From Caenorhabditis elegans (taxonomy: Eukaryota > Nematoda > Chromadorea > Rhabditida > Rhabditidae), in assembly GCF_000002985.6 (NCBI RefSeq), contig NC_003284.9, forward strand, positions 4,340,001-4,404,000: a stretch of 64,000 nucleotides of DNA, written 5' to 3'. Below are positions 13,637-53,166 of this stretch, piece by piece. The notes under the pieces were generated by a model, which did no database searches, had not been told where the DNA came from, and saw only the letters and a list, made by a program, of their open reading frames with translations. Every line of letters starts with the position of its first letter. Within the stretch, counting starts at the first letter, position 1. The translations under genes and the position numbers were made by a program.

Positions 13637-14787
13637 ATGGAAGGCAAAGAAACTGATCAGCATCGGTGAGTTTTTTTTGTTTTTTTTTTCCAAAACTGAT
13701 TTGATTTTCTTATAGCCATATGCGCGTTGTCGTTATGGCAGCATGCACAGTTGCAACAATTTCTGTTTTCTCTGCAATTCTTGTGCTCCCAGTGCTCTTC
13801 ACCTCTGTCCAGAGCCTTCAACAAGAAATTGATTTTGAAACCAATTTCTGCAAGGTTTGAAAATCTTTAAACATTTTCCAAGTTTATCGTATTTTTTTCA
13901 GATGCGCTCCCGCGATATGCTTGTAAACCTGTACCAAACTGGAGGGCAAAACCGTGTCAAGAGAGGATGGCTTTTCGGGCAATGGATCCCAGACAGTGGA
14001 GCCGGAGGAGGTGCAGGAAAAGAAGACTATGGAGCACCAGCCACCGAGCAACCATACAATGCCCCAGCTCCATCCCCATCCCATGGAGGATACGATCAAC
14101 CATCCAACAATGGATACGGACCAGTTGTCAATGCCGAGCCAGCTCCACAATGCTGCACTTGCCAGCAAGGAAATGCCGGACCACCAGGACCACCAGGAGA
14201 TGATGGACACGATGGAAAGGACGGAAACGCCGGATCTGATGCTCACAATGGAAAGGACGGTGGAGTCGCTCCATCTGACGGACTTCAAAGCGAGCCATGC
14301 ATGATCTGCCCACCAGGACCACAAGGACTTATGGGACAAGCTGGAAAGAAGGGACCAACCGGACCACGTGGATCCCCAGGACTTGCTGGAATTGACGGAA
14401 GACGTGGAGAGCCAGGTATGGTTGGACCAACTGGACTAGACGGAGAGCAGGGACCACAAGGACCTCCAGGAAAGAGAGGAGAAGATGGACGTGTCATCGA
14501 TGTAAGAATTTTATTTAAAAATTAATCGTAAATCGCATTACTTCCAGATCAACGGACCACAAGGAGCCCCAGGAGCACCAGGAGCTCAAGGACGCAAGGG
14601 AGAATCCGGACCAAAGGGACGTCGTGGAAACACTATTCCAGGACCACAAGGACCAAACGGAGATGCCGGAAGAAAGGGACGTGCAGGACACAAGGGAGAG
14701 GCAGGAGGACCAGGAGGTCTCGGATCCAAGGGACCAAATGGAGACTGCTTCCACTGCCCAACCCCAAGAACCCCACCAGGATATTAA
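13637..14787 (+). CDS. col-165: Cuticle collagen (nematode COL family)
   Basis: Exons 13637-13665, 13716-13854, 13902-14501 and 14548-14787 give 335 residues, a normal size for the family. A hydrophobic N-terminal segment (about residues 11-37) serves as signal or membrane anchor. It is followed by the conserved F-x-x-N-x-C-K-x-R-S-R-D-M block and a proprotein-convertase site RVKR (74-77). Then comes a spacer rich in Gly, Pro and Tyr. The collagen part has CCTC (140-143), a short Gly-X-Y run, PCMIC (188-192), a long Gly-X-Y run with breaks at VIDIN and NTIPG, and a CFHC terminal domain. Cysteine groups flanking the Gly-X-Y runs are the family hallmark for trimer cross-links. Codon use is strongly biased (GGA, CCA, AAG), as in highly expressed collagens. 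The product is secreted by hypodermis into the cuticle. The symbol rests on my memory of the neighbourhood. Confidence 0.93.
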
Positions 14788-16945: not shown

Positions 16946-17116
16946 ATTCTGATGAAGCATGATAAGCAACCATGTTATATATTTCGATCACAATCAAACA
17001 AAAACGATATTTTTCAGACAAAAGAAGTTTATCATGAAATAGAAAACAAAAAACCAAACAAAAAAAATCAAAGGGAATACAGAAAATTCGGGATAAGATA
17101 ACAGGTACAATTAATC

Positions 17117-17492
17117 CTACACATTGCATGCGCTGTGTCTGCTCCGTTCGATCACACCTTCTATGTACCATTTAGGCTCGGACCTGGTCTGGCAACGAGC
17201 AAAAACTGCAAAGCAGCAGCAAACGCCGACAACTGCGGCGACAAAACTGATTTGGACGTAGATATTTGCAGATAAAAGGAAGTCCGTGACAGGTGAATCG
17301 ACTGGAGGCCCAATTGTTGTTTTTGGTGGAAGGAGGTTGAGCAATTGATTGAAGGCCTGAAAATTAATTATTATTATTTAAAAATAAATTCTTAGAAAGT
17401 CATAATTCACTTACCGGTGGGTGAGGGTCAAATGTAGAGGGGCGAGCAAAGACAGTTGATAACATGAAGCAGAGAAGCAGTAGCAGACGCAT
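17117..17492 (-). CDS. Small type I membrane protein, array member A
   Basis: Unrecognised. Exons (minus) 17492-17415 and 17356-17117 join in phase 0 for 105 residues. A strong signal peptide (MRLLLLLCFMLSTVFA) is followed by a short proline-rich outer part. One membrane segment at about 58-79 carries a Cys-Cys-Cys run, and a 26-residue tail is basic at first (ARCQTRSEPKW). The first exon ends ..DPHPP, almost as in neighbour B (..ETHPP), so A and B are close paralogues. Unlike most of the array, no intron cuts the membrane segment. Confidence 0.85.
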
Positions 17493-17534
17493 CGCTCTAA
17501 TTATCGGAGAAACGTTGAATGAATGGCAAGGGGC

Positions 17535-18352
17535 AGTTTCTCTTTTTGTCGGACACCGTCCGTTATCAAAGGAACTTTTTGGGCGGGACCTGGTACGCAG
17601 CGAGATAGTAACAAGAGTACATATCTAGGCGAGGATGCAGAAGGTTAGACAAAAAAGAAAGATGGAAACTGAAACAAAAGTAATGGTTTTGTGAACGATG
17701 GCGTGTTGGCTCACATTTTCGTGTTGGATAACAAGATTCAGACATCTAAATCGACCGTTTGGAGGACATGTTAACTTTTGCATTTTCCAAACAACTTACA
17801 TTCTGGATATCGCCATAGGCTGAGTTTTGTTCAGGGGACAAGGGAAGTACTTCGTCCGGTCGAATATGTAGTTTTTGATATGAAGAAACACTACGAATAG
17901 ATCCTGTTCAGTTCGACAATCCGTCTGAAATGAAAAACACAAAATAAATTTTTGCACTGAAAGTGTCAAAGTTACACCGTACTTTTTAAGTTTCTCATTC
18001 GAATCCGGGTACCTAATTTAGAAACCGAGAAACGATCGAAAAGTGGAATCTACTAGTTTGCTTTGAAAGAAGGCTATATTTGATAAAGTAAATTGGATCT
18101 GAAATGACACGAAAAAAATATACCGTTAAGATGAACTGATTCGCTACACTCTGAACCATCTAGACTCAAAATGTCACCTCCCTATTGTCTACAAAAATAG
18201 TCAATATTTCTTTTCCTCTTCTCGAGCTCTTTTTTTTTGAGCTCAGATTTAATTTTTGGATTTTCTCGTAATTAGAATAAATGTGGACAAAATATACACG
18301 AAACAAATTAGAATTATACATTAGAATGATGAGAACAGGTAGGTAATAGAAA
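17535..18352. other. Space between array genes A and B with exon-like open pieces
   Basis: No complete gene. On the minus strand, 17924-17800 is a 125-base open block between TTTCAG and GTAAGT. Farther upstream at about 18180-18025 two more pieces join in frame (GGDILSLDGSECSESV, then DPIYFIKYSLLSK). They do not connect to each other or to A in one frame. It may be a dead array member or an unrecognised gene. Confidence 0.3.
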
Positions 18353-18746
18353 TCAATTTATATGTATGCGGTGTTCATCCAAGTGGTGTGCTTCCCAATC
18401 AAGCCGTTGCTCCAGAGTTGACATGCGATAGCTGGGGAACTCTTTTTTCCGACACTGAACGTCAAAGCAGGTCTTGATAACAATTCCTATGATGATCAGG
18501 ACTAGCAGGACGAACATGAATTGTACCAGCTTCTGTATTTCCTGTTGGGTGTATACAGCGGCGTTCGTTATGATGATTTCACTGGTGCCATTTGGATGTT
18601 GCAGGTCGAGCTGCTCGGAGAGGGACTGTTAAAAAGAAAAATAAACATTTGTTGGTCTAATCACGCTAACTAACCGGTGGGTGAGTTTCATTAAACATTT
18701 TTGAAGCCGAAGCAACACAGATCACAATGACCGCGTGGAAAAACAT
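18353..18746 (-). CDS. Small type I membrane protein, array member B
   Basis: Unrecognised. Exons 18746-18675 and 18625-18353 join in phase 0 for 114 residues. N-terminal signal peptide (MFFHAVIVICVASASK), an outer part with an N-G-T sequon, one membrane segment at about 57-74 (FMFVLLVLIIIGIVI), then a 40-residue charged tail with CRKKE directly after the membrane and many His, Glu and Asp. Exon layout and the HPP exon end match member A. Confidence 0.85.
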
Positions 18747-21700
18747 CTTTAATGTAAAAGCTTGGCATTGTAGCCTATCAAATTCACATGCCGTTTAGTT
18801 GGTGGGGCCTGTAAAGTAAAAAAAAAACGTTTCTATACTCCATCCCATTCCCTGGCATGGCACGCAAAATTGAAATTGATCGCGCGTCGTCGCTGCTGGA
18901 TTTAAATCATGGTTCATCAGATTTTTTATGTGTTGGGTTATTATAAATCTATGGGAACTACTACTTGTGTGAATCGTCAGCATTTACAAGTTTGTAGATT
19001 TTTGAGACGGGTCCCCTTTCAAATCCTACATTGTGAGATAAGATACGATAGATTTTCTTTGTTCATCCCCCTCCGCGAAATCAACTGTCTACGTGGCATT
19101 TATTCTGGAAAAAAAGAGTCTACCGAAAAGTGTTAATTGATAACACCTATTACTTTAATCTATTCAAAAATTTCCAATTCATTAGATAATGTTCAGTTTT
19201 TGCATTATCAGTAAAATATCACATTTTTTATGGCTGGAGAACAAAAAATATGAGCCTGTCAATCATTTTCATTCGTTTTCGAAATTGTATTAATTTGCAC
19301 TATCAGTTATAAATTGAGTGGAGAGCTCTACGTGTTTAACTCGAATGGGGGGCAAAGAAGGGATTTGATTCTACTGGACTTAAAAATCTAAAATAAAATG
19401 GGGAAAAGTACCAAAATGTACCAAAAAGGCTAAAAAAAACGAAAGAATAAATATTTTGTAAAAAAGTGCATGTCTTTCCCAAAAGGTTGATGGAAAGAAG
19501 TATATGGAGATTTGTGGAAAAAAGTCTGTAAAACATCTGGCATTTTAGACTTCATCATTACGAAATTAAGGTGTCTTTTTTGTCCCTGTACTCTCATTGT
19601 GCTATGAAACAAGAAATAACTGTGCTCAAACACACTATTCGGAATCTCTGCAGTGGATCCAAGCTCGGCCATCAGGTTTGTGTAGACTATAGTTTCTCTC
19701 AATGCCACAGAAATTTCAATTTAGGATGTTTGGTTACTGAGAAACTGACGACGAATTTGCAAAAATTGCTTGATTATTGAGACCTACGGAACAAAATACA
19801 AGAGACAACGGTAGTGGTCTCTAAATTTAATAGAGTACCTAATAATCGATGGAAAATTTGATTAAGGGTCTAGAACAAAGTTTTACCTTTCCTAAAAGCC
19901 TTTGGAAAAAAAATATTAAAAAAACATCGACTTGAAACAGTTCCAAAAAAATTTATTACAGAAAAATGAAGTTCTTTGGAAAACTAAACTATGTTTCTCC
20001 TCAACCCATTTGCATTACCAAAATATACAACTGCAAGTGATATCAAAACTTGTCTTGTAACAAATCGGCAGAATTTATCAATATTGGCAATGTGAGAAGC
20101 ATTTTTCATTCTTGAAATCTGAATTCATTAACTTTTTAAGCCAGTATACTCCAAAAAGTTACTTTTTTTTCGTCGATTGTTAGTTGGAAATTGTTAACGA
20201 AACGGTTGTAGAAAGTAGAATTAGTATCAGTAGCAATTGTATTTTCATTTCTATGACCATGCAGATATGAGAAAGAGGTGCTCCGTTTAGGTCGAGACAA
20301 CAACACAATTGAACATTTATTGGACCCTATAAACTGTCAATCATCTGAATGGGAATTTTCAATTTTTTTTCGTATTGGGGTTTTATACCTATGTATTAAT
20401 TTCGCGGCTTCAAGTTGCCGTTTTTTATCTTTCTCGTCCAAGTTTAGTCGGAAATTGAAAGTGTTTGGCAATTGACAACCAACACTGGTTTAAACAACTT
20501 CTACAATCGGCAGAGTTGTTGGGTTCGGCAAACTCGGCAAGTGGTAATTTCGGAAATTGGCAGTTTTGGCACATGGAAATTTTGACAGTCCGCAATTTTG
20601 ACAATTTTAACAATCGACAATATCGGAAACAATCCATTTTGACAACTTCGGTAATTTCGTCAATCAGCAACGTCGGCAACTTTTTCAACTTCGGTAATTT
20701 TGAAATTTTTTTTATTTTAACAGTCGTAAATTTTTGCAATCGACAATTTAAGACATCGAAATTTTCAGAAATTGGCAAAATTCGGCAATCGTGAATTCAA
20801 TAATTTTTGAAATCGGCAATTCCGGAAATCTGTTTTATAATGAATTATCTACATATTATTATATGAAATGTACTTAGAAAAAAGCTGCCAAGGTAAAGTG
20901 AGTGCTAAACTGTGTAGTTGGTTTTTTCTCAAAACCCCCGATTTATATCCAATACTCTTTGTGACATTCTTCATGGCCAAAACCAATTTTCTAATAAAAA
21001 CTCAACACGCGGAGCAGACGGCGGCTGTTTTGTCGGCTTCTGTGCGATTCCGACGATATTGTAAACAAACAGTATCTTCTTGCCAACTTCTGAGAACTGA
21101 CAGTACCATCTACCAACAGCTGGCTGGTCATAAACAGTACATAATATAAACATTTGCGTCAATACTGATGATATCGTTTTTTAAGGGAGGACAAGTAGTT
21201 CGGTGTGTCCTAAAAATACAATGAGAGAAACGCCCAAAATAAAGAATGAATGTTGATCTTCAGATAAAAGCTAATTTCCGACGGCTGCGACACGAAAAAG
21301 TTGGCAAAATTTAAGACTTTAGCTGACATTATATCAATTTTTTATAATTTTCAACCATCATGAAGATTTATGCAATTTCGCATTATTAAATGTGTACCTT
21401 TGATTTGAGTCGATACCTTCAAAATATTAAATATATATTAAATCACTGATCATTGCGCCAGTAGGAATAGGTTTCAATTTTCTACTTCCAATGTTTGTTC
21501 AAAAACAATCTCCAAAAAACTTTCCCAATAACTGACAGCTATATCATGTTCCATTTTTTGTTTCGTGTCACGCAGGTGCCAGAAAAGGTAAAAACAGTTT
21601 TTTTTCTCCCTGTAGAGCTAGCTCAGATTTGCATATGAAAAGAAGAGTGTTAACAATAAACTTTCAGTTTAGATATTTGAATGCTTTTTGGTAATAGTTT

Positions 21701-21926
21701 TGCAACATCATCAAAAAAATTTCAATTTTTCCTCGTGCACTAAATTTCAAAAAAAAAGAAGAAATTCCGAGCATCAAGTGACAGGAGATTTTTTTCACTT
21801 TCAGAAGTTTCTACAGGATGTGGGCAAAGTGTGACGCGGGAAAAGCAAAGATTGGATTTTGAGAATTTTTTTTTCCAAGTTTTCATTTAAAACCACAATA
21901 TCAAAAATTTATGAATATTTCTATAA
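18747..21926. other. 3.2-kb gap in the array, repeats, no gene seen
   Basis: Mostly AT-rich. A TCGGCAAT/TTCGGCAACT-type low-complexity repeat covers about 20470-20830. A GC-richer block at 20995-21130 is open in two minus frames but has no splice or motif support. I could not assemble an array-type gene here. Confidence 0.5.
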
Positions 21927-22527
21927 CTAATCTTCATCACGAAGAACCTTTCCGTTTATCTTGAATCTCACGATCGTTGGCTTCTTCGGCTCTGCCTGTA
22001 CGTTGTCTCGCCGGTGAGCACGGTTTGCATACTCGATGCGCGGATTGCGGGGTGTTACTGACAATGAGTCAAGCCAACTCATCCTGCGACGAAAATGTCG
22101 ATCGGAGACAATGAGAATGTAGAGAACTCTGAAAGAATGAATTATTCATAAGTCATAGTAAAAAGAGCTACTTTCAAAATCTCACAAGAAAAATATGACA
22201 ACTCCGAGCAACACATACATGGATTCCACTTGCGCAACTTGATTGGTGTTGTCGGTGGACTGCACGAATACGACTGGCGTCATTTCTCTAGAAACAAAAA
22301 GCGAAGTGGTATGTTGAGCTACTACACGTCTCTGTTTTGTCGTGGTTCAAGGACTTTTTTTTGGCGTGGCACATAAGATCATAAATTTACCCCCTTATTA
22401 TTTATACTCTTTCCATGACAACCAGGAGAAAAATTAAACAAAAACTGCTGCTCTACAAAGTAAAAATCAGTTTTGGTTTTTGAAAATACTATTTGAAAAA
22501 AACTTACGAAACTTCTTCATCGCTCAT
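21927..22527 (-). CDS. Small single-pass protein, KCNE-like in layout, array member C
   Basis: Unrecognised family. Exons 22527-22508 (20-base first exon MSDEEV), 22287-22186 and 22128-21927 give 107 residues. The first intron is phase 2. The second is phase 2 inside the membrane segment (TT|A, residue 41). The outer part of about 29 residues has no signal peptide. One membrane segment at 30-48 (MYVLLGVVIFFLVLYILIV) is followed by SDRHFRRRMSWL and a basic 59-residue tail. An acidic and neutral outside, one helix and a basic membrane-proximal tail are also seen in KCNE/MPS potassium-channel subunits, but that is a resemblance only. Confidence 0.82.
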
Positions 22528-22935
22528 TTTCTTATTAGTTGGTCAAACGCCGGATGAAGCCAGCCAAAGTATGTTTCTTGGAGAAAAGATAGCACACAAT
22601 GCCTCTTTTTTCCAACAAGCAAATGAATATCGTTCATTCTCCTCCGATTGCATTTATTTTTTTGAACCCTGCGTCTCCTTTATCGAGACACATGAGAAGA
22701 GAGACCGTTCTTGTCTGGTAAGCGTGTTCTTTTTTTTTCAAATTCCTTTCTTTGAAGGCTCTGATATAGTGGAGTTTATTGATATAAATGCAAAGTTAAG
22801 CGGAATTGGGGAACAAATAGGGAAATTGAATAACGTCCTGGGAGCTGAAGTTGTGATAAAAACTGAATGTCAAATACTTGTACAATGAAGGTTTTAAAAT
22901 CAAACTTGAACACACAGAATCAATCAATTATTAGT
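22528..22935. other. Between members C and D, no gene supported
   Basis: A plus-strand frame of 131 codons (22493-22888) runs here but overlaps member C's first exon and has no motif; it is probably chance. Confidence 0.5.
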
Positions 22936-23387
22936 TCAGAGGGGCTCGGTAACTGTGTCCAAAAAGAAGCGAATGTAAAGTGGAAGACCATCCTTGCTCG
23001 GAATGATGGCAAAACGGTGAATCTGCCCATTTTCCATGACGTCGATGTATCCCAATTGCGCATTTTCCAATTCGTGACGGTTTTTCACATTGATGACAAT
23101 TTCCTGCTCATCACGATGAGCTGCTTTGTAGAGAATGATGGTAGCGATGAAGGAACTGAAATTGATTTTTTATGGTTATAATCAATTGCGCACAAAAAAG
23201 TTCAAACTTACATCATCAAGAAAAGTGCCCAGTAGTTTGAGAAATTTGAGCACCAAATGTCGGCGAGAATCAGGTAGGCGTCGGTTTCAAAGAAGGTCAT
23301 GTTGAAAAACGGAGTGACGGAATCGCAACTGATGCTGTAGGCGGAGCTCTCATTAATTGAGTAGGTTCTCGAATGTTTGGACCACAT
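22936..23387 (-). CDS. Small single-pass membrane protein, array member D
   Basis: Unrecognised. Exons 23387-23212 and 23155-22936 give 131 residues from ATG 23387. An outer part of about 50 residues has N-glycosylation sequons (NES, NMT, NFS) and cysteines. One membrane segment (about 53-68) is cut by a phase-2 intron (AT|T, residue 59). A 60-residue hydrophilic tail follows. The frame stays open upstream of this ATG after an AACAG acceptor-like site and includes a hydrophobic stretch (FFLCVILL) that could be a signal peptide, but no ATG is present there, so the true start may differ. Confidence 0.78.
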
Positions 23388-23606
23388 TGGCAGAGAGTTG
23401 ATAGGGAGGGGGAGACCGTTTGAAGGAGACTGTTTTAATAGGATGACGCATAGAAAAAATGTTCCACTATTTTAATGATTACATTGCTAGAAAAAAAAGA
23501 AAAACAAATACAATAAACCATTATTAGTATTTTATGAAACTTTCAAATCAATAAAGCGGCGCAACTGAGCAAATCGGTTAGAAAATCGAAGTACTAAAAA
23601 TTATAA

Positions 23607-24893
23607 TTATACATCAATCTCCTGAGAGCCTTCCCGCACAATACTCAACTGTTTTCCATAGGCATATCTCGGAAAGAAGATCACTTTTGAAGTGTCGATT
23701 TGAGTCGTCGGAATGTCAATGACTGCGATGGAATCCAACCCATTTCCTACCACCATATCAATATTCCGCAACTTTTCTGTAGTTGCTCGCCGGACATAGC
23801 TGCTATTGATGTTGCTCAGGAACACGAACAGGATTCTGAAAAGGTAATAATTTAGATCGCCGTAATTTAAGGAACAACCTACATCATGACCACGAAAAAA
23901 ATAATGATGTGAGCAACGAAATTTCGTTGCGGCGATTTCTGGGATCCAGAAAATGCGGCTGCGGGCAGCAGAAGGGACTCAAGTACAAGCTGCTTGTCGG
24001 CAATGTTTTGGGCATTTTGCGTTGTATTTGGTAGATTTGTGGTTGGTTCATTTGTGGTAGGTGATGGCACAACAGCTGAAAACGGTATTGAACTGGTTGT
24101 AGAAGGTTCTGCGTAGAAATCGAATGGATTCTCTTCTTCAATTTCGTGGAGCAGATTTGCTGGTGATCCGTCGTGGTCCTTTGTGAACATTGAGTTATCC
24201 GCAACGTACAACTGGAAAATGTTGATAGATTAATAAGGTTATACATTGTTATGGACCATATGCGTGTGCTCAAAAACTAGTTTTCTGGGATGCTCCTGTC
24301 ATCGAAACGTGATTAGTTCTAAGTTTGAAAAAAGTTTTTCAAATTACCGTAATTATGATCAGTTGCTCAAACGCGTGGTTCTTGAAGATAGAGTAGCGCA
24401 AGGAGGGTAATTGTTCAATCCACTCCTATGATACCAAAATGACAAAATTAACTTCTCAAAAAATTTTTGAAATTTTTTACGAAACTTTTTTGTAGAGAGT
24501 CAAATACTGGCAATAATTGAGTTTTTGCTACTTTTTGAGAAGTATGTTCAAATCTCTACAGTGAAAGGAAGATTAATATTTTAAACATACATAAGTTTCA
24601 TGAGAACATACATAAGAACATAAAATTCGGAGGAATTTTTTCATTTTTGGTCGATAACTTCCAAAATGTAGCCAAACCTGACTGATTACCACTTTTTTGA
24701 AACAAATAAAAAGTTTCAAAAATTTTTTGAAAACTTTTACCACGATGTTCAGTCATTTTATCACCATAGAAGCGGTTTCTAACATTTTTTCCAACTGTTG
24801 CTACTATTACCTTACCGTAAAGAGGTCCTTATTCAAACAATTCGTCGGTAACGTCATCGCGTATAGCATGATCAATAAAATGAAGATTTTCAT
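23607..24893 (-). CDS. Type I membrane protein with Thr/Pro-rich outer domain, array member E
   Basis: Unrecognised; the largest array member, 237 residues. Exons 24893-24816 (signal peptide MKIFILLIMLYAMTLP), 24425-24348, 24211-23883 and 23835-23607. The first two introns are phase 0; the last is phase 2 inside the membrane segment (AT|A, residue 162). The outer part is acidic, then Thr/Ser/Pro/Asn-rich (about 88-116, PSPTTNEPTTNLPNTT), like O-glycosylated stalks. The membrane segment is about 150-168; the tail is about 69 residues. Exon 24425-24348 rests on phase fit and an ATAG acceptor, so it is the weakest part. Confidence 0.8.
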
Positions 24894-25549
24894 CACCTCC
24901 TGCTGACCATGAAATTGGGGTCGAATGCTCTAAATCTTCAGTGAGAAAAGGTTCTGTAAAAGTGCGCTGTTTTTAATGGAAACATTGATAGAAAATTTCC
25001 CCGAAATACGACAGATGTAGGAATGTAGTGGAAATAGTATATGAAGTTTCAGAAGAAAACAGTCAGATTGAAAACATCTGTTGTCACCGACCCTCGTGAG
25101 ATTTGTTATCGTCAGACTCAAAAAATAATTCGCCCACCGAAAAGTGTTTTTGGTGTTAAATACAAGTAAGCTTTTAGACTTTGCTCATCGTAAAAACTAT
25201 GAAACAGAAAAAAAGTCGGGGACTTCCAACGGAAAATTTGAGCGCAATGTTTATCTTCCTCGTGACATTCAAGGTTGCTGAAGAGAGAAATGTTCAGTTG
25301 AGATGGAATTCAAACGGTTTACTGAGAGGCTTTTATACTTTAAAATCAAAAATTTTTTGAAAATAAAATCATCAACTGGTTTGGTTTTCGAAGTGAGCAA
25401 TCAAGACACCCATGTGTCAGAAAAGGCAGAGAGGGACAAAGGAGCACGTTTAGAAAACATTAGAAAAAAAAAAGGAAAACTTGAAAAATAACTACTAGAA
25501 CAACGAAAAATACGGGAAACTTCAAACCAATACAAAAAAAACAAATAAT
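24894..25549. other. Intergenic, no gene seen
   Basis: Promoter side of member E and 3' side of member F. No supported frame. Confidence 0.5.
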
Positions 25550-26318
25550 TCAAATAATCATATCAAGGTCCACAGAGATGGTTTCACTTTTGATGCTTTC
25601 GTTGTCTTCCTTTCCGTATGCTTTTGCGTAGGCGTTTCTCGAACTGCACGGGTCAGCGAGGAAGTCCGAGAAGTAGTTCCTAAGACGGATGAGAAGCTTG
25701 CTTTCTTTCTTCATTCTACGGACCTCTTTGATAAGGCGGCTGGTGAAGAGGTACATCAGGATTGTCAATCTAAAAATTTAGAACTTTGAGTTTCAATATG
25801 TTGAACGGGGTTTGTAGGCGTAAGATTCTGGGTTGCCTAGTGAAGTTTCTAGTGAAGCACAAGTCTCAGTGTTTGGAGGAAACTTTCTTGTTGGCAGATA
25901 GTTGTAAGGTCAGCTTACACCGACAACAAATTATCAAACTGGGACAGAAAGTTTTCACAATTACACAGAAAGTTATCAAACGTCGGCAGGAAAAATTTGT
26001 AAAACACACTACTGGTATGCTCTAAAACAAAAAAAAACTTACACAATTCCGCAAAGCGATGCCCAGAAGAGAAATCCCGTTTCTTGCCACCAAGCGAAAC
26101 AATCGTAAGTAGCACCAACTTCTTCGATAGACACATCCAACGTTGCAGTGTCTGTAGACTTTTCCGTAATGCTGCTGGTATTTCCGGCCTGAAAAAAAAA
26201 TCAATTTTTAAATCTGATAAACATATTTGAAGTTTACCTCAATTTGGTCTGTTTTCACAAAGAGTCCACAATTAATCAACATCAGGATACATATGATCCC
26301 GGCAGTCGCTAACTTCAT
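25550..26318 (-). CDS. Type I membrane protein, array member F
   Basis: Unrecognised, 148 residues. Exons 26318-26238 (signal peptide MKLATAGIICILMLINCG), 26188-26043 and 25769-25550. The first intron is phase 0; the second is phase 2 within the membrane segment (GT|A, residue 76). The Thr/Ser-rich outer part of about 40 residues has an NTS sequon. The membrane segment (about 66-84, FLFWASLCGIVLTILMYLF) is followed by a very basic stretch (IKEVRRMKKESK) and an acidic Ser-rich end. A loose repeat (GACAGAAAGTTTTCACAATT and similar) lies in the second intron. Confidence 0.85.
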
Positions 26319-27167
26319 GATGAGCCTGAAACAAGAAAACAATTAAATCTATAGTGGAAGCAACACAATGTGATAATGAGAACTGGGAAATGGTACATGA
26401 GTCGAGAAGGAGGGACGAAGAAACTTATGTGCAGCGGATCTCTGTGTTTCTGTGCGCCTCTTTGACTGTATTCATCACTCCGTTTATTGCCCAGATATTC
26501 GTCACTCGCTGCTCATCACGGGGCAATGCACAGATTGAGTAGATGGAAGAAAATTGGCAGATGCTATATGCGCACAAAAAAATGTTGGAAAGGGAACATG
26601 AAAAAGTGGTGAAGAGGGCAAGGGGGATTGGAGGCGAAGAGCAAATACTGTGTAAAAAACACATCAAAAACATAAACCTCTATTCTTAATTGATTGAGAG
26701 ACTTGCAAGTATGTACTGGCCGAGCCAATAATCTATGAGTGCATAGATTCAAACTCAGTAAACAATTACAATTTGAATTTGCATGAGTCGCTGCTCAGTG
26801 TGATACGGAGCCATTGAATTCTCTGAGCAGCGACGCTTTTAAAACAAAATAATTCGAGTTTGTTGATATATAGAGAATGTTTTTGTAATGTCTGGAAATA
26901 ATTCTATAACTGGATACTACACAACAGTACGAAAAAAAGGGACACATGACAAAAACCTATTGATCTAATTTTCGTATATATTGCAAATTGGGGCTAAATG
27001 GAATCATTTTGAAATTGCCAATTTATTCAGTAATAACTTTATACATATAAAAATTAAACACAAACTTATGTTCTCTCTAGGTTTCAATGATAATTATGAC
27101 AATTTATTGAAATGTGTGGTATGATTATGCGGGTTATAGCAATTGGGAAAATAATACAATAAGACAC
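26319..27167. other. Intergenic, no gene seen
   Basis: Contains an imperfect inverted repeat around 26790-26840 (GAGTCGCTGCTCAG against CTGAGCAGCGACGC). Otherwise AT-rich and without supported frames. Confidence 0.5.
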
Positions 27168-27512
27168 TTAAACGCGTGAATTGTTGATAGGAGCTCGTGA
27201 CAGCAATGGTAGTCTTCCTGGTAATGGGTCGTTAGTTGTTCCAAGTGATGCTAGGGGTATAGACCCTTGAGCGTTCTCAGCGTCCTCATCTCCTTCCAGC
27301 TCTGGCCGGCAGCAACTTCCTCTCCGTCCACAGCAACCGTACTTTTGCATGATGTAGTCTACCAAAAAACCAATGCTGGAAATTCAAAAATGTTCATTTT
27401 GTTTTTTAAAAGACTCCTGAAAACTTTGTTCTCACCTGAGACACGAGAGGACAACAACCAAAAAAATGAGCATCGGCGGAACATGATATTTGATTGTTTG
27501 AGCTGTTTCCAT
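27168..27512 (-). CDS. Small membrane protein with Cys-rich tail, array member G
   Basis: Unrecognised, 94 residues. Exons 27512-27436 and 27375-27168; the intron is phase 2 inside the membrane segment (AG|C, residue 26). The ATG directly follows a TTGTCAG acceptor-like site, which may be the trans-splice site. The outer part is only about 12 residues (METAQTIKYHVP), the membrane segment about 13-31. The tail begins with a cysteine cluster (YGCCGRRGSCCR), which could be palmitoylated, then an acidic run and a Pro/Leu-rich end. Confidence 0.83.
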
Positions 27513-27750
27513 CTGACAAATAATTCGGAATGTTGAACAAAAAATGAAACTTATAAATATGAGACAAGGATTAACAACCTTGTGGGATATAGTAATAGAA
27601 GATAAATCGGTAATAATTTAAATACGTTTATTGGTGTAAAAAAGTAATGGGCAATCGGTAGGGTGTATCAGGAAACATCTATGATTAGCAGTACAATTTC
27701 TGAAATTAATTCCCATTAAAAAATTTGAAAAAAATAGATGACAGCAACCT

Positions 27751-27959
27751 CTAAATGGTAGCTTCAACTCGGATGACTGTGGTTCGAGCAATGTGTTTAT
27801 GCATGTTTTGAAACACCTCGGCAATGAAGTACCAAATTCTAAAATTTTGGATAAAATTGAATTATTTTTTGAAAGTGGAATAAGAAATTACATGACCACC
27901 GCCGAAGTCAAACCGATAACTATCAAAAATCCAATGGTCACTAAATTCTGGACGTCCAT
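27751..27959 (-). CDS. Micro-protein of 51 residues, array member H
   Basis: Unrecognised. Exons 27959-27892 and 27838-27751 with a phase-2 intron inside the membrane segment (AT|A, residue 23). The protein is almost only a membrane helix (about 5-30) plus a 21-residue basic tail (MHKHIARTTVIRVEATI). The frame is open upstream of the ATG to an ATTCAG site, so a longer N-terminus with an NFT sequon is possible. Confidence 0.65.
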
Positions 27960-28542
27960 GGTAAAGTTTGAGTTGTATAAAAATGAGGTATCTGAATCTT
28001 GAAATGAGATGTGTGCGATATATTTTTCAATCGCCGATAATGAGAATTGAAATGTTTTATAAAAGCGTGTACATGTATGCATTTTAGACCAGAATTTTTA
28101 CTCCTCACACAGAAAAAAAATGTCTGACGAAATAATTAACACATGAATTACGTCAAGGTTAAATTTTACAATCATAAATATGGTTTAAGAAAAGTTTAAG
28201 AATTCCAGTAATCCGAAATTTGGGCAATTTCAGCCAGTTCCAAAATTGCTCACTGCAGCAAATTCAAAAACCAGCAATTGCTCAACTTACCAATTACCGC
28301 ACACCTCTGATCAAACCAAAATAATAGTTATGGTTTGGCAACCTAACAATACCAAAATATTAACCAAAACGGAAGGGCACGCTAAAATTTATCCACAAAA
28401 AAGTTATTCGAGAGCTACTAAAAAGAAATAGTCTATACTACTGTATTTCAATTTTATCGTTGTTACAAATTATGAATACATATGGTGCATGTTGATCGTC
28501 TGTAATAAAATTTTGAAAAAATTTACGAACATTTTTCTTACT

Positions 28543-28850
28543 TTAAATAGGAAGAAGTGGAACAGTGTCTATGATCACTTTGTTGGCAGCATATACTTCC
28601 AGCCCATGCATTTGCTCCAGTTGCTCCACGTCAAGAGATACAAATCCTTGTGGACGACTTGGCTCCTCTTCATCCTCAAATCTTTCGAAAAAACGGGGCT
28701 GTGGGAAGAACCATTCTCTGATGAGAGTTATGAATAGGATGATGCTATAATTTCCATAACTATTTAAAAATAATTTCAGATCATCGTCACTTACAAAAAT
28801 ATTGACCAAATTAGGAGCAAGATGAGATAGATGCATTTGATGATGTCCAT
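28543..28850 (-). CDS. Small membrane protein, array member I
   Basis: Unrecognised, 85 residues. Exons 28850-28795 and 28744-28543; phase-2 intron inside the membrane segment (TT|C, residue 19), with acceptor TTATAG. The membrane segment starts almost at the N-terminus (about 3-27). The tail has REWFFPQPRFFERFEDEEEP, then a hydrophilic stretch and a proline/leucine end. The neighbouring array genes supported the exon choice. Confidence 0.78.
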
Positions 28851-29619
28851 GTTGAAACAAGTCATGCAGGTTTGCGAAATAGTAATTGAAACTAACAAAA
28901 AGTTAAGAAGGATAATTAATTAAATATACAGGTATACTTATTGGTTTCAACCAAAATCGATATGAAAAATTGTTCAGAAATTGACATATGTAACATCAAC
29001 ATTCATTAACAAAAAAAGGAGATCAATAATTAATCTGTGCAGTGCTAACAATGACAAATGTCTACAATAGTATTGCATTCAGACCTGAAAAATATATGCT
29101 CTCAGTTTTGAAAAAAATATATGTTTCCCCGAAATTTCCTGCCTTTCTACTTATTTTCTCACTGACAATGAACATGTTCAAAAATAAGGAAAAAATCCTT
29201 AATAAATTTTATAAAAGTTTAGAGAAACGACTTAAAAATACGAAGAAATTTAAAATAAAATTGCAAACTAATTCTTAAATCATTAACAAAAGTTTTGAAA
29301 GTTTTTTTTAGTACTGGCATTTTAAGTTTTAAAAATAATGAACCCAACTTTACTGTACTTTTGTCATTTACGATCCATTCTTTAAAATTTTAAGAGATTA
29401 ATTTATGGATCCTTTTGATTGCAAATCAAAATGTATCTCGGCATACTCTTTAAAATTTTTTCAAACTTACTTCCCTACATTGCAATATAAACTTTGTTAT
29501 ACAAAAAGTTATAATTAGGAAATTAAAAGTTTTGTACGTTTGCAAAAGTATTTGCCGTACATCCCTACCGTACCCAAAAAAAAAATAATACTTACTTTTA
29601 ATAATTTTGTCACAAGATT
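28851..29619. other. Intergenic, no gene seen
   Basis: Very AT-rich; a plus-strand Lys-rich frame at 29042-29278 is low complexity and not supported. Confidence 0.5.
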
Positions 29620-30039
29620 TCAAATCATTTTAATCATCTCCTCACAGAATTCATTTCTTTCATATGAGCGCTCCACAACAAAAACTCGTGACTGTATGCC
29701 TTCACGTTGTCGGGCTTTTTGTATTGACTTGATTGCAGTTCCCGCAAAACATACTGCCCATGCGACATCAGCAATATAGCACGCGCTGAAAAATTCAATT
29801 GTTCATTGCAAAACGTTGAATATTATTTAATTACACAATCACTCCCCAGACTAGAGCCAGGCAAACCAGCAGCAGAACAACGAGTGGCGGAATGGTGCTC
29901 TCAATGATAAAATAAATTCTGAAGTTTTTTTTTTGAGCTATTTGAACAATGAGCACAATTAATTACGTAATCTCTGGGTTTAAAACCACTTTTCAAATTT
30001 ACAAATCACAATATAACACTTATTTTTATTGCTATGCAT
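29620..30039 (-). CDS. Small membrane protein with uncertain start, array member J
   Basis: Unrecognised. Two sound exons, 29918-29835 and 29785-29620, carry a membrane segment (STIPPLVVLLLVCLALVWGV) cut by a phase-2 intron (GT|C) and a tail of about 50 residues rich in Arg, Glu and Ser. No ATG occurs in the first of these or just before it. A 20-base exon 30039-30020 (MHSNKN, donor AA|GTGTTA) would join in frame and give 89 residues, but it overlaps the stop of member K on the same strand. The outer sequence IESTIPPLVV resembles member G. Either the start is unusual or the gene has lost it. Confidence 0.6.
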
Positions 30040-30277
30040 CATTCAAATTTTTCTCAGCTGTATAATAACTTTTAACAACATTGATTTTGTTCAATTCTTC
30101 TTTTTCGAGATTAGAGTGTGACGGTGAGCTCATTCTTGCTCCGAACACTGCACAGACTCTGAAAATTTATGTTGAACTGTGGAAGACCAGAATTGAAGCT
30201 TACAACGACATGCAAACGGCCAATGCAATCACAAATACCAAATAACTCAATGCAGCCAAAACACCAGGAAGAAGCAT
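30032..30277 (-). CDS. Small membrane protein, array member K
   Basis: Unrecognised, 66 residues. Exons 30277-30204 and 30158-30032; phase-2 intron inside the membrane segment (TT|A, residue 25). The protein starts with an almost uninterrupted hydrophobic stretch (about 2-32). A Ser-rich turn (GARMSSPSHSN) and a charged 20-residue end follow. Its stop codon region overlaps the proposed first exon of member J. Confidence 0.8.
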
Positions 30278-30495
30278 ATTGTGTATATAATTGGAAGTTA
30301 ATGTAAAATGAATAAACATTCAACAAGCATAAGAAAAAAAAAGATTTAACCGGAGTTCTACCGTTTTAAAAGTAACGAAATTACACAGAAAATTCTCACA
30401 AAATTGTTTTTTTCATTCATACAAATAAAACGTCTTGAACGCTGAAATTATATTATTAAACTATGTTTTTACAGTTTTACAATCTTAATACCTGT

Positions 30496-30854
30496 TCATA
30501 AATTGATAGTCTGATCAAACTCATCACTCTCGTACCCGAGTATCGGTGTTTCGTTCTCACTGGTCATGTCAACATCGCTTTCTGTGGGATCAATTTTAAT
30601 AACAACTTGGCAACGGTTAACAGGAGCTGCGATTGGGGTCCTTGGTGGAATAGTGTTCACAATACGCCGGAGCTCTTCTGGAGGCAATGGGCAGAAAAAT
30701 CCGTCGGCCCTCTCGATGAGCATGCAGATGCTGGAAATAAAAATTGACTCAAGAGTTTTTAAAGAAAAATCAAATCTTACCACACCGCTAGTGCGCATAC
30801 TAAAATAACCACGAAGGCAAACTGGATGGCTGGGTTTTTGAAAAATGGGAGCAT
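30496..30854 (-). CDS. Small membrane protein with acidic tail, array member L
   Basis: Unrecognised, 102 residues. Exons 30854-30781 and 30730-30496; phase-2 intron inside the membrane segment (TG|C, residue 25). Outer part about 11 residues, membrane segment about 12-29, then a tail of about 70 residues: Pro-rich (PRTPIAAPV), then acidic with many Ser/Thr (DPTESDVDMTSENE), possible casein-kinase-type sites. Confidence 0.84.
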
Positions 30855-31035
30855 CTGTGAAGAATATTGAAGATTAATAAAATAGAAAATACTTTTTAAA
30901 AAATGTACTGGAGTATGGTAAAATACCACTTCAAAAAAATCCATTAAAATTTAAAAAAAATCACTCGTCAATATAAACGAATCATGCAAATGAAGAAAAA
31001 AACCATAAAGCTACATTAAAAATACAAAAAAATTA

Positions 31036-31513
31036 TCAGTAATGTTGAAGAGAAGTATCGACAAAGTCAAGTGAATTGATCTCCACATCATCAATGACTC
31101 TTTGACGATTGGCAACATTATTCTTGCATCCGGTAATGTCGCAGTGGTAGTACTCATCAAATATGACCAACATGCTGAAAATCGAAATATCTGGACAACA
31201 GTACACCGTGCCGAGCATGTAACGGGCAACAAAAAAAACGAAAACGGGCGACAATTGGCGATTATTGAAAAGTTGTGGGCAGGAGCAGAGGCTCATGGGG
31301 ATCTGGACCGCCCGATGTTGCCCGTTTTTGCCCACTTTAATAGTATTCCAGGTCTTACTACGGTGGTAGAGTAATATTCTATTTTGTTCGCCTATACTCA
31401 AATAAATACGGTTTTTAATTACTTTCCCAAAAAATTCCAAAAACTTACATTATTACCCCCACCACTAAGAACAGTGCAAGAAACGCCAAAAGCAGAATGT
31501 GTGCAGACTTCAT
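31036..31513 (-). CDS. Small membrane protein, array member M
   Basis: Unrecognised, 67 residues. Exons 31513-31449 and 31174-31036; phase-2 intron inside the membrane segment (AT|C, residue 22). The N-terminus is hydrophobic (about 3-28, HILLLAFLALFLVVGVI), followed by CDITGCKNN and an acidic tail. The 274-base intron is longer than in the other members and holds a fold-back sequence (GGGCAAC near 31230 against GTTGCCCG near 31320), probably a repeat insertion. Confidence 0.8.
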
Positions 31514-31795
31514 CTCTGAAATTACAAATTTATTAAATAAAGGTTCTAGGTACAAAAACAAACAAGGAAACAAAAAATTAAAAGACAGTAAAACATCTGA
31601 ATAACTAAAAAAAAACAAAAGAAAAATACAAATTCTGAAGACGTTAACTATCTGTTAACTGTTAACTGATGTAGCTATTCTGCAAGTAGAAAATATTATT
31701 AAATCAATACTAAAAAAAGAGATAAAACTTACAACCAATTTTGAAAAAAAAAGCAGTCCTAAATTACAAATCCCAAAAAAGCTGCACATCGCAAT

Positions 31796-32088
31796 TTATA
31801 CTCTGATTTCAAAAGTTTTGTGAGGTCCAATCTGTTGCTCGGAAATCCCGACTCGCCCGCTTTTGGTCCCGTGGTTTCGCTTGACGTCTTCTTCATTCAA
31901 TTTTTTAGCTTCACTGAAGTAATCCATTGGTTTTGCCACACAGTGCAGGTAGATTTCACAGGCGATGAAAATGCTACAAGTCACAAAATGTTTTAAAAAA
32001 AAATTGAGCACACAATATCAACTCACACAAAGAAGAACAAGAAGAGGCTGAGAAAAATGAGCATATTGATAGCACTAAGTTCAAGCAT
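31796..32088 (-). CDS. Small membrane protein, array member N
   Basis: Unrecognised, 79 residues. Exons 32088-32027 and 31973-31796; phase-2 intron inside the membrane segment (GT|C, residue 21). Membrane segment about 9-26 with a phenylalanine run; tail of about 50 residues rich in Lys and Glu (EAKKLNEEDVKRNHGTKSGR). Confidence 0.82.
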
Positions 32089-32935
32089 TATACCCTAAAC
32101 TTTTATAATTAAGGTTAAAATTGGTGAATAATACAAGATAAAACTGGACAGCAAACCGATTAATCAATACAGTGCAATTAAACAGACAGGCAAAACATTT
32201 ATTCCTAGATATGAGTATCATACGGTAAGAAGTAGTACATATATGATATTAAAGGAGGAGTAAGGGATCAAACTTCTTTTCTTAGAACTTGCCAAATTGT
32301 CGTTGAACTTGTTGCCCTAAATGACAAAAAAAAACAGTATTTAAAAAAACAAAAATTAAAAAAATATTTTTATTCAAATTTGCAAAAAAAAAAGTTAGAT
32401 TAGGTCTTTCCGCTGTTCGGAAAACTGGATAGTCTGTTTTTAATACTTTTCGATTTGGCTTACAACATTTTCAAACAAATTACAAAAAAAAAACAAATAA
32501 AAATTCTGATAAAAAACATTTGAAAATTGTTGCAAAATTTAACAAAAAAAAAGCCTCTAGAATCCTAGAAATAATACATTTTTTATAATTTTTAGGGAGT
32601 TTCATAATAAGAGAGTTCTAAAAAAATTGTATGCTGAATAACTATTGATTACCTATCAATTAAAGTTGAATTTACAAAATAAGTTTGAACAATTACTTAT
32701 GAATTGGTAACATTTTTTGAAGACGAATTTCAGGTTATATTCAAAATTGCGAACTGGCATATGAAAGTTTTATGAGAAGTTTCGTTCTAAAATTCAATGA
32801 TTTTCAGTCCATCAAAGGTAAAAGTTTTGATCCCTTTCTCCTCTTTCGATGTTGCAGAAGATCAGGTGAAGTGAACTGCATGAAAACATGAAAAAGATGT
32901 AATCAAGACATAAAAGTGCAAAACTTACCATTTCA
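32089..32935. other. Intergenic, no gene seen
   Basis: Very AT-rich with many poly-A runs; no supported frame. The donor-like GTAAG at about 32928 (minus) just after member O's stop could be a 3'UTR intron. Confidence 0.5.
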
Positions 32936-33211
32936 TTATGGGTAGTTACTATCTCGACGCGTCGACAGCAAAACGGCTGTATCGTTTTCCGAGTTGAAAC
33001 GGGCCGCAACTCTGGCAGCCCTCGAATATCGGCGTCGTTGAACACACGGCTCTACGAGAATTATGAACACGCATCCACTGAAATTTATTTCAAATGTTAA
33101 TCTAATTAACGTCTCTTACCATGCTGCAACGGCTAGCAAAACTCCAAATACCACAGCGAACCATAGGAAAATATTGGCTATTGGGAGTGTCGGGTGCATA
33201 AAGGTATTCAT
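32936..33211 (-). CDS. Small membrane protein with Arg-rich tail, array member O
   Basis: Unrecognised, 77 residues. Exons 33211-33120 and 33077-32936; phase-2 intron inside the membrane segment (TG|T, residue 31). Outer part about 12 residues, long membrane segment about 13-40, then an Arg-rich tail (CVQRRRYSRAARVAARF) and a hydrophilic end (STRRDSNYP). Confidence 0.84.
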
Positions 33212-33599
33212 CTTTAAAGTTTTGTAAGGTCAAATCAAATTTGCTAACAGGAAAAAATAATAAAGTTCGGGGAATAACCGATTACTGAAACAATATATTA
33301 CATAACAAATTTTAAATCATGTTATTTTCATTTTAGAAAACGCAGAAAAAGGGAAAGAAAAAGAAAAAGCTCGTGGACTGACGTGGCAATTCAACAAACG
33401 ACTGCTCACATTAAGTGCATAGCTTTCTTATTTTTTAAACAGAACAGCATGAAAAACAGTATAAATAAAGTTAAGTTTAAAGTTTAATAAAAAATTAAAA
33501 TTTTGCGAGCATTGGATGTTTAAGAAATTGAATTCCAATCTGAAAAAGACGGAGGTTTTGAGTTGAGACCTCTATACCTATACAGCTACGTTTCTAATC

Positions 33600-34003
33600 A
33601 GAAGATACAAAATTTCTCACCTCGAGGCATTGAATTTGTGTGCTTCACATTATAATTGCCGCACGTGTATAAAATATTGCAGCCAGAAGAGTCAGAAACG
33701 TTATGGTACTTAGGAAGAGGAACAATCGCAATTGAAAAATTATGATGAACGTTGGAATAAGCTTGTAGAAAAGATAAATCGACACCGGAACACAGCTAAA
33801 AGTTGAATTTACATTGAAGGTGGCTGAAATTAAATAAAAATTGACAAACTTTATCAAAATTGACAATCCATATGCTCGCAAAGAATGCTTCGGAGGAAGT
33901 CGCCCAATGACCGGTATTTCAGTGAAAAATATGTAGATCAGCTCTCTAATTGAATTGTGATGCACACCAACACGATTCCAGTTATTACAGGAAATGCTGA
34001 ATA
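33600..34003 (-). pseudogene. Unresolved array-type remnant
   Basis: Several readings are open but none makes a convincing gene. After TATTCAG at about 33997, one frame gives a membrane-like piece (FPVITGIVLVCITIQLES), then TGA, then a tail-like piece (LKYRSLGDFLRSILCEHMD). Another frame runs open as 33965-33645 with a hydrophobic end. A third is open after TTTTAG at about 33797 (KYHNVSDSSGCNILYTC). A decayed array member, or one gene whose splicing I could not solve, is likely. Confidence 0.35.
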
Positions 34004-34307
34004 AAACAAGATGTAGTCATATTTGGTTTCCTTTTTTGGAAACCGGCAACTTCAGCAATCGTTGGTTTAAAAAAATTTTCGGCGTTCTGCAATTTCAGCA
34101 GTTTCCAAAACTGCAAGTGCCGCGCGCCGCTATTTGGAATCCTTGGGACGAAACAGTCCGGAAAAATCTAGCGTTGAGGTTACAATAAAAACTGCAAAAT
34201 TCTGCAAAACTGATCATTTTTTGGCGTCCGAGACCAGAATTCGGGCTTTGCAAGTTTTAATATAGTGCGACCAAAATATTGATTTTAAAAAACTATCACA
34301 TTACTTT

Positions 34308-34852
34308 TCAAAAAAGTATATCCATTGACAGCTCAGCACTGTTCCGCCAAGAATGTAAAAATATATGAAGAGATCTGCAAAAGCGCTTGGTTTTCGATTA
34401 GAGATCAGGATTTAACTTTTTACAATAACATTATCACAATAATTACTGTTAGCAACCCAAACATTATAACTTGATCAAGTTCGCATTCGTCAATTGGGTA
34501 AGTAGATATCTAAATTAAGCTCATATTTGAAAAAATTCAAACAATCTGTAAACTTCTGATACCTATAATATTTTAAGTCAAAAATTTATAAAAGCTGTAA
34601 GATGGCTTCAAAAAAGTTTAGAGAGCTGAAAAATTATGTGAGTGGATAAGTTGCGAAACGATAAAGTTGGTGCTTAAGTTTCTAAAGTTGGTGTATAAAT
34701 TGCAACGAATTTCCGTGTTTCTTCACAACAAAAACAAAGTTTAGTACCTGAAAATTTTCCTGCTTCCAGTGATTTTGTTGGTCAGGAACTTTTGAGAAAC
34801 ATCTTTGAGCAAAAATTAAAACAATGAAAATTAATTCAAGTGTTGAATTCAT
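34308..34852 (-). CDS. Type I membrane protein, array member Q
   Basis: Unrecognised, 85 residues. Exons 34852-34748 (signal peptide MNSTLELIFIVLIFAQRCFS), 34509-34424 and 34374-34308. The first intron is phase 0; the second is phase 2 inside the membrane segment (TT|A, residue 64), as in members E and F. The outer part is about 30 residues; the membrane segment is about 52-68 (FGLLTVIIVIMLLSL). The tail is only about 16 residues. The first intron contains AAAGTTGG-type repeat. Confidence 0.8.
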
Positions 34853-36607
34853 ATTTTTTAATAGAAATTGCTGGTTCTGAATGAAGTTAATTGAAACAGG
34901 AAATATTGAGCGATAGTTAGAACAAATTTTAAGAAAAAAGGCATTGATTATATAAAATTTCTGATTCTCGTCCGACTTGGTACTTTTTAACCAGTTTTTT
35001 CATAAGTTTAAAATCTTAAAACCTATGAAAATTGGTGAAATAGTGAGAAAAGATACATTCAAATTTCAAAAGCAATCTTCAGATTTTTACAGTTTTCGAT
35101 ATTGTCTAAGTTTTAAAATCCAACTGCATTTGCACTTTTTTGCAATGTTTTCTGGAGAGTACATAACTTTTCGTAGATAATAAAGAGAAGCTTCCGGTCA
35201 CAAAAATCAAAAAAAAAAGCATTGTTCAAGTTATTCGCCTTAACATTTTATTTTTCAAGCTACTATTAAAATATTTAGGAGCATTAAACCTTAAAACAAA
35301 AACGACTGAAATGGACGCCTAAAAAATGTATTTGTGAGATTTGGGCGGAGCTAATAACATGTGAATAGGATAGATTTCTCTACGTATTTCTCGAGACAAG
35401 CAAGAAAACGGTTGAAAATGTATCTCCTATCACATTCTTATTAGTAAGTGTATTTTTGCAAAAGTACAGTACTCAACTTGAAAAAAAATCATAAAAACAT
35501 TTAGCAAACGAATGAAAAAAAATGAGAGAATGCTTTTATCCGAGAGTGCTTTCAAACGTCATACCAAAAAATGTTCTACTCCTTAAATGGTCTGTAATTG
35601 GAGTTGAATAAAATGAGCGTAAAACTAATGGTTTTAAATCGGGCACACACACACACATACACAACATTTTTTGCGTTTTTCTGTTTTTGAATGTGAATAC
35701 AACGGAAATGTGTTTTCAAAGAACAGTTGGATACGGTGGTGTCCAAGGATATTGCAGCAACCTTTGACGGCAACCAGTAGATGGGGAACAAAGCAAAAGA
35801 TGGAATAGTCGTAAATTTTGTGGTGACGTTCAAATTGGTTCAGTGCTCAATTTCAATGTTCTTTTTTGAGCTTTTAGTGTCTGCTTCATTTGGAAATTTG
35901 GAAAGAAACCAGAACAAAAATTAGAAGACTGTTTAAACTGAATTATATTATCTGAATGATTATTAATTACATTACGTTTTCTTTTCTTGTTCATTTACCA
36001 TGATAGTACTTTTAAATAATCCAAATAGTACCAGTAGTTTAAAACGTTAGGGTGTCTAAATTGACAAGTTTCACAAGATTCACTAACAAAAGTGTTCTAC
36101 TATTTTAACTTTTCAATCGTGTTTCAAATATTTGTATTTAAATATTATACAAAGATACAAATCTGCAGCAATGCTCATAGTTTTACCAAATAAGTTCACT
36201 TTGGCACGCTACCAAAATTTGGCAGCTTATCCATGTTTCTTATTTGTTTTATGTTCACTGTTATTGGAACGTACAAATTGAATATCGATTTCAATAGTGA
36301 AACCACCTCTAGGGTGCCTAAATGACAAAATGCCGACCGGACGGTTCTAATTGTAAGTCTTAAAATTCAAGAGAGCAAATATTTCGCAGCGTCATTTGAA
36401 AACTATATAAATACAAAAAAGCTCATCACAGCGGGATACTAACTACGATCGTACCTACAATTTATCAGTTTTTGTCTGACGTAAAAGATACGGTAGATAT
36501 GAAATTTCAGATTTGACATTATTTTTGTACAATTTTTATATGTCAAAACTCATGCCTTGTATATATGAAAAGAAAAATATAAATAACGAGAAATATGAAA
36601 ATGCAAT
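34853..36607. other. Intergenic between members Q and S
   Basis: No complete gene. At 35576-35840 (minus) a GC-richer block is open in more than one frame and next to a CA-dinucleotide run (35642-35660). It could be another damaged array member. The rest is AT-rich. Confidence 0.45.
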
Positions 36608-36901
36608 CTACTCCTGGTTTCGCTGACGTGGACGATATGCAACTCGTCGGTATCTTCTCACGTCGTCAACTTCTTGAACGGCATTTTCGTGTTCAATTGG
36701 ATCGTTTCTTTGTTGATCATGTAAGCGAATTGTTGCAAAGAAGCTACAAATAAGTAGTCAATAAAAACAAGTAATAACTATCTCAACTTACATTATAAAG
36801 GTAAATACTTTCAGAAGCCAGGAAAATATGGCAAAAAATCGTCGAAATAAATCATCTTCTCGAAATGCTGAACACATATACACTGATTCAGGTTGATTCA
36901 T
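36608..36901 (-). CDS. Small membrane protein, array member S (upstream edge of array)
   Basis: Unrecognised, 81 residues. Exons 36901-36792 and 36743-36608; phase-2 intron inside the membrane segment (AT|C, residue 37). A hydrophilic 20-residue start (MNQPESVYMCSAFREDD) precedes the membrane segment (about 21-42). The tail is acidic, then strongly basic (RRYRRVAYRPRQRNQ). It is the last member I could find before lst-2. Confidence 0.83.

Positions 36902-49375: not shown

Positions 49376-53166
<3,791 letters not shown>

Follow-up and report, generated by a model that had tools for sequence, protein, structure and literature searches.

Fourteen short genes arranged in tandem on the minus strand of a 64,000-nucleotide stretch of nematode DNA (NC_003284.9, positions 4,340,001 to 4,404,000; the whole stretch is referred to as the window) very probably descend from a single ancestral gene, which encoded a short protein with one membrane helix. 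The duplications would be old, with exon layout and faint residue patterns as the remaining traces of common origin. In all 14 hand models of these genes, C to O and S, the membrane segment is interrupted at a common place by an intron of the same phase, phase 2. The genes belong to an array of 17 models (A to O, Q and S), which were rebuilt by hand on the minus strand. The rebuilt models occupy positions 17117-36901, every member on the minus strand, as a preliminary description made from the sequence alone had stated, and each contains one hydrophobic, membrane-like segment. The array is real, with corrections to some of its members. The models are listed here with their recovery by an ab initio gene predictor and by a pattern scan for donors within hydrophobic segments.

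A, exons 17492-17415 and 17356-17117, minus strand: 105 amino acids (aa); signal-peptide-like exon ending in phase 0 and an uninterrupted membrane segment; resembles B.
B, exons 18746-18675 and 18625-18353, minus strand: 114 aa; layout as in A; the first exons of A and B both end in HPP, followed by the phase-0 intron.
C, exons 22527-22508, 22287-22186 and 22128-21927, minus strand: 107 aa; phase-2 membrane intron and an earlier phase-2 intron.
D, exons 23387-23212 and 23155-22936, minus strand: 131 aa; phase-2 membrane intron; three N-glycosylation sequons N-terminal of the segment, whose hydrophobicity of 1.92 is just below the scan cut of 2.0.
E, exons 24893-24816, 24425-24348, 24211-23883 and 23835-23607, minus strand: 237 aa; signal exon, Ser/Thr/Pro-rich stretch and phase-2 membrane intron; the acceptor of the second exon is weak (-3.0), and the ab initio model lacks this exon.
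F, exons 26318-26238, 26188-26043 and 25769-25550, minus strand: 148 aa; signal exon ending in phase 0 and phase-2 membrane intron; fused with G ab initio.
G, exons 27512-27436 and 27375-27168, minus strand: 94 aa; D at +6 and a Cys pair at +14/+15 from the intron.
H, exons 27959-27892 and 27838-27751, minus strand: 51 aa; donor in the scan with another acceptor; not predicted ab initio.
I, exons 28850-28795 and 28744-28543, minus strand: 85 aa; weak acceptor (-1.9); scan donor with another acceptor; intron read through ab initio.
J, exons 29917-29835 and 29785-29620, minus strand: 82 codons; phase-2 membrane intron; no ATG found.
K, exons 30277-30204 and 30158-30032, minus strand: 66 aa; in the pattern scan, not predicted ab initio.
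L, exons 30854-30781 and 30730-30496, minus strand: 102 aa; E at +6 and Cys at +13.
M, exons 31513-31449 and 31174-31036, minus strand: 67 aa; D at +6 and Cys at +11.
N, exons 32088-32027 and 31973-31796, minus strand: 79 aa; E at +6 and Cys at +11; weak acceptor (-2.8); not predicted ab initio.
O, exons 33211-33120 and 33077-32936, minus strand: 77 aa; Cys at +11.
Q, signal-like exon 34852-34748 and hydrophobic exon 34509-34424, minus strand: no credible 3' part; possible relic.
S, exons 36901-36792 and 36743-36608, minus strand: 81 aa; in the pattern scan, not predicted ab initio.

A GT-AG intron in phase 2 lies inside the hydrophobic segment of 13 complete open reading frames (C, D, E, F, G, H, I, K, L, M, N, O and S), and the size range of 51-237 aa given in the preliminary description holds for these 13. 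The gene J has the exon pair and the intron; its first exon as modelled starts 1 base past a possible acceptor and 114 bases after the K stop. The membrane intron had originally been ascribed to 15 of the 17 models. This stands for the 14 named above and has to be withdrawn for Q, in which the first donor is poor (d -2.4) and no acceptor yields a convincing tail. A signal-peptide-like first exon ending in phase 0 had been ascribed to A, B, E, F and Q; it was found in the first four, while the signal-like exon of Q is followed by the poor donor. In A and B the membrane segment is uninterrupted and the sole intron lies upstream, in phase 0. For H, I and N, the pattern scan favoured acceptors other than the modelled ones.

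The phase-2 pattern exceeds chance. The ab initio predictor, which is our own, has no phase preference and uses nematode codon and splice tables. It placed 10 membrane-interrupting introns, all of them in phase 2 and on the minus strand, one of which (27202) is an artefact of the fusion of G with F. The other 63 predicted introns, with spurious and fused models among them, were distributed over phases 0, 1 and 2 as 29, 19 and 15. Nine of the 14 modelled membrane introns were recovered exactly (C, D, E, F, G, J, L, M and O); spurious plus-strand genes were also called over the array. The pattern scan, with thresholds that were loosened after looking, found 4, 2 and 16 donors in phases 0, 1 and 2 on the minus strand of the array and none on its plus strand. 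Twenty dinucleotide shuffles of the same minus strand gave means of 0.8, 0.65 and 0.6, with a phase-2 maximum of 2. The 16 phase-2 donors comprise 13 model donors and 3 non-model donors, and a looser splice sum gave 18, where the shuffles averaged 1.4 and did not exceed 4. Two stricter scans of the whole window had come first. The first gave a single donor. The second gave 2 plus-strand and 9 minus-strand donors; 7 of the latter were in phase 2, and the array accounted for 6 of the 7. With the hydrophobicity cut lowered to 1.7, applied to unshuffled sequence, the minus strand outside the array yielded 11 donors, 8 of them in phase 2 and several with one common acceptor; none of these appeared gene-like by eye, and the plus strand of the array gave 3 at the same cut, also unshuffled. 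According to a preprint, over half of the introns are in phase 0 in all nematodes compared (PMC11230420), and phase 2 is thus a minority class.

The 14 intron-bearing models look like real genes. When their last exons, with the first 12 codons dropped, were compared with 758 open segments in non-genic DNA, all 14 had a codon score at or above the 97th percentile. The corresponding percentiles were 0.88 for A, 0.79 for B and 0.02 for Q. The modelled frame outscored the two alternative frames in 11 of these models (all but C, H and N), and did not do so in A, B or Q. Exons had a mean G+C content of 0.425, introns of 0.277 and the DNA between members of 0.303.

The kinship of the members is scarcely visible in their sequences. 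Full-length local alignments were computed for all 136 pairs, with 200 segment-wise shuffles per pair. Three pairs reached p<0.01 and five p<0.05, the latter being no excess over chance, which agrees with the earlier statement that the proteins are nearly unrelated outside the membrane segment. The three pairs are D-M, A-B and A-L, and D-M is the only one within C to S. The A-L similarity (best blastp E 0.008) was rejected as chance, the signal-peptide and ectodomain region of A being paired with the membrane segment and tail of L. A DNA self-comparison within 17001-37000 gave no match at E 1e-3 (best 0.008), and a masked tblastn search for further members in the window reached a best E of only 0.070.

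The residues that follow the intron carry more signal. An acidic residue at +6 from the intron together with a Cys at +11 to +14 is present in G, J, L, M and N (5 of the 14). With residue classes that were picked after seeing the alignment, this count was matched in 0 of 20,000 tail shuffles and in 0 of 3,000 shuffles with the offsets left free; for the single features, p was 0.0014 for the Cys and 0.027 for the acidic residue. From 0 to +9 after the intron, the in-register alignment outscored within-window shuffles (p 0.0055) and had a marginal advantage over shifted copies (p 0.05); from 0 to +18, the p against shifted copies was 0.0155.

Common descent of C to O and S is supported by the constant phase and place of the intron and by the residue pattern anchored to it. 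The earlier claim of one family with a conserved gene structure can therefore be kept for these 14 genes, the residue pattern being present in 5 of them; it does not extend to A and B, which have no membrane intron. These two genes should not be grouped with the intron-bearing family absent further evidence. The distance between the paralogs makes old duplications equally possible as fast divergence, and we read the pattern as old tandem duplication in which gene structure has outlasted sequence.

Several further features were observed along the array. The gaps in the series N-M-L-K-J (32088-29620, minus strand) measure 114-282 bases. An AG that could be used for trans-splicing precedes the ATG directly in G and L (0 bases), by 2 bases in M and by 7 bases in F. 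The short gaps and the acceptor-like AGs are compatible with an operon of N, M, L, K and J with trans-splicing. The gap of 3 kb that separates B from C contains an open stretch resembling a signal peptide (MKIQLLLILILLSTTVSLTISN, then a stop) at 20326-20183 on the minus strand, possibly the relic of a further member. The same gap contains, at 20860-20400 (minus strand), many degenerate GCCGATT/TTGCCGA-like words, of a kind common in nematode non-coding DNA. Downstream of Q, a hydrophobic-rich open stretch of 123 codons at 34016-33648 (minus strand) is perhaps a decayed member.

The membrane helix is the sole part common to all members, so the leading guess for these proteins is a role as small accessory subunits. 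In line with it, all 17 models have one hydrophobic segment, and none reaches a Pfam family at the cut-off. The charges flanking the segment lean towards an inside C-terminus in 7 of 14 models (C, D, F, G, H, J and O). Sequons precede the segment in B (two), D (three), E, F and Q (one each, in Q near its start). In G, H, I, K, L, M and N, just 7-12 residues lie ahead of the membrane window. Ten of the 16 proteins (J included, Q left out) end in V, I or L, which corresponds to a post hoc binomial p of 5.6e-4 at an assumed background of 0.22; PDZ-bound membrane proteins often end in these residues.

The known proteins closest to the array members are those of the KCNE/MiRP family, including nematode MPS-1 to MPS-4, which are likewise small and have a single membrane helix. 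According to PMC4210162, MPS-1 has its N-terminus outside, its C-terminus inside and a flexible tail. MPS-1 consists of 256 residues, whereas most array members have fewer than 110, and the array members have no Pfam match at the cut-off. A faint juxtamembrane likeness of A to KCNE received no support from a PDB search. A sub-threshold Pfam line for F, YVC1_C (calcium channel C-terminal), scored 12.3 bits against a cut-off of 27 and was not counted. NCBIfam, run on D, E and F (3 of the 17), likewise gave nothing at the cut-off. Because the helix alone is in common and the N-termini of the middle block are very short, an accessory role of the KCNE/MPS type is our first choice, ranked above a recognition family, secreted peptides and neutral drift. 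By analogy with those subunits, action in their manner is possible, although the chances are well below even. Trafficking or regulation would be set by the variable tail, and the helix would pack against a multi-pass partner, for instance a channel, a transporter or a receptor. Copies may have specialised onto different partners or cells, and some, such as Q and perhaps J, may be decaying. Taken as a whole, a tandem family of single-helix accessory subunits is a tentative explanation, to which we give the largest share of our confidence and still clearly less than half of it.

A number of results weigh against that explanation. The flanking charges favour the reverse orientation in K, L, M and S and are tied in E, I and N. 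Sequons occur on both sides of the segment; E, F, G and O have one each on its C-terminal side. A cytosolic tail motif common to the members was rejected, the best one (width 7) having a log-likelihood ratio of 69.67, where 12 shuffles averaged 70.47. The profile search that had been proposed at the outset, hmmscan against Pfam-A, returned nothing at the cut-off for any of the 17 proteins (J without a start, Q partial), and membership in KCNE was rejected as no potassium-channel accessory family appeared in it at E up to 1. When A, B and F (3 of the 17) were searched against the PDB, the matches were weak, with best E of 0.087, 1.6 and 0.27, and we take the matched proteins to be unrelated. 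Similarity is absent in most pairs, the median z over all 136 being about 0. The half of the helix preceding the intron shows no register (shift p 0.47), nor does the sum-of-pairs score for +6 to +18 against shifted copies, either in all 14 (p 0.24) or in G, H and J to O (p 0.48). The ab initio predictor missed 5 of the 14 membrane introns (H, I, K, N and S), and for I it ran an open frame across the intron, starting at a different ATG.

The preliminary description had regarded the genes as a fast-evolving family under recognition or conflict selection; gamete, immune or self-recognition receptors would be of this kind. This is unlikely, though it fares best among the alternatives. The large divergence of the paralogs and the tandem layout fit it, as do the Ser/Thr/Pro-rich ectodomain of E and the sequons ahead of the segment in B, D, E and F. 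It is opposed by the seven complete members with so few residues ahead of the membrane window: if their N-terminus is outside, G, H, I, K, L, M and N have almost no ectodomain for recognition. If the topology is reversed, tails of 22-72 residues would be outside in these seven.

In the next alternative, K, L, M and N would be signal-anchored or signal-cleaved precursors with the C-terminal part outside, giving rise to secreted or tethered peptides. The short N-termini are in line with this, and so are two features of L, M and N: an acidic residue borders the hydrophobic core on its C-terminal side, and the tails contain Cys. In K, L and M, moreover, the N flank is less negative than the C flank (N is a tie). 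However, the uncharged cores of K to N measure 23-32 residues, which is longer than a usual signal peptide, and the Cys are few and lack a repeating framework. We consider secreted or tethered peptides improbable.

An equally low likelihood is assigned to mostly neutral birth and death, by which old duplicates of little function drift and leave relics in the gaps. The missing start of J, the missing end of Q and the signal-peptide-like open piece at about 20.3 kb in the B-C gap fit this view, but the 13 intact reading frames and the codon usage of the last exons, at or above the 97th percentile of non-genic open reading frames in 14 of 14, speak against it. Finally, unrelated small genes whose independently gained introns agree by accident, or introns that are partly mis-modelled, would account for the missing similarity in most pairs, the weak acceptors of I and N, the other acceptors favoured in H, I and N and the read-through of I, but are very improbable given phase 2 in 10 of 10 membrane introns against 15 of 63 in the background and a residue pattern anchored to the intron.

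The array is flanked by genes of recognisable type, which were assigned from the ab initio models and their domain content.

253-5578, plus strand: a protein kinase gene followed by an F14H12.3-like TSP1 gene, fused in a single ab initio model.
13637-14787, plus strand: cuticle collagen.
43358-38637, minus strand: FYVE protein.
49376-53166, plus strand: AP-2 mu-like adaptor subunit.

Going by domain content, the putative assignment of flanking genes is to cst, col-165, lst-2 and dpy-23. A tandem repeat of 42 bases with AGCCGAATTAGCCG-type words (2.6 copies) lies at 55228-55335. Rfam at gathering thresholds and tRNA scans of the window found nothing. Published lists class F14H12.3 as thrombospondin type I and R160.7 as a FYVE zinc-finger gene, and in other papers cst-1/2 correspond to F14H12.4 and C24A8.4 at C. 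elegans X:4.33-4.34 Mb. The window flanks match in kind the F14H12-R160 stretch of the C. elegans chromosome X, with its TSP1 gene and FYVE gene, so that the window has the character of a Caenorhabditis X region. Among the matches listed for the open-access literature, F14H12.6, F14H12.7 and F14H12.8 are not mentioned, R160.4 occurs solely in a Ginkgo paper and R160.10 solely in unrelated papers. The same literature gave no paper for R160.2, R160.3, R160.5, R160.6 or R160.8 together with 'elegans', and nothing relevant to such an array of small membrane genes among the titles listed.

Other tandem families of small proteins in nematodes, such as the major sperm proteins and the male secreted short proteins, form clusters of short genes as well. 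The genes may represent an unrecognised nematode single-helix family whose kinship is visible mainly by the phase-2 intron in the helix, and which would supply combinatorial accessory subunits for channels or receptors. In this full form the proposal is doubtful, and we hold it a little less firmly than the KCNE/MPS-type role alone. Families of this sort escape sequence homology searches. In the array, gene structure indicates kinship where most pairwise scores sit at chance, which suggests a general route to hidden microprotein families. Should the counterparts in C. elegans prove to be conserved, a group of X-linked genes for small membrane proteins, themselves little studied but neighbours of well-studied genes, would be directly testable in a standard laboratory animal.

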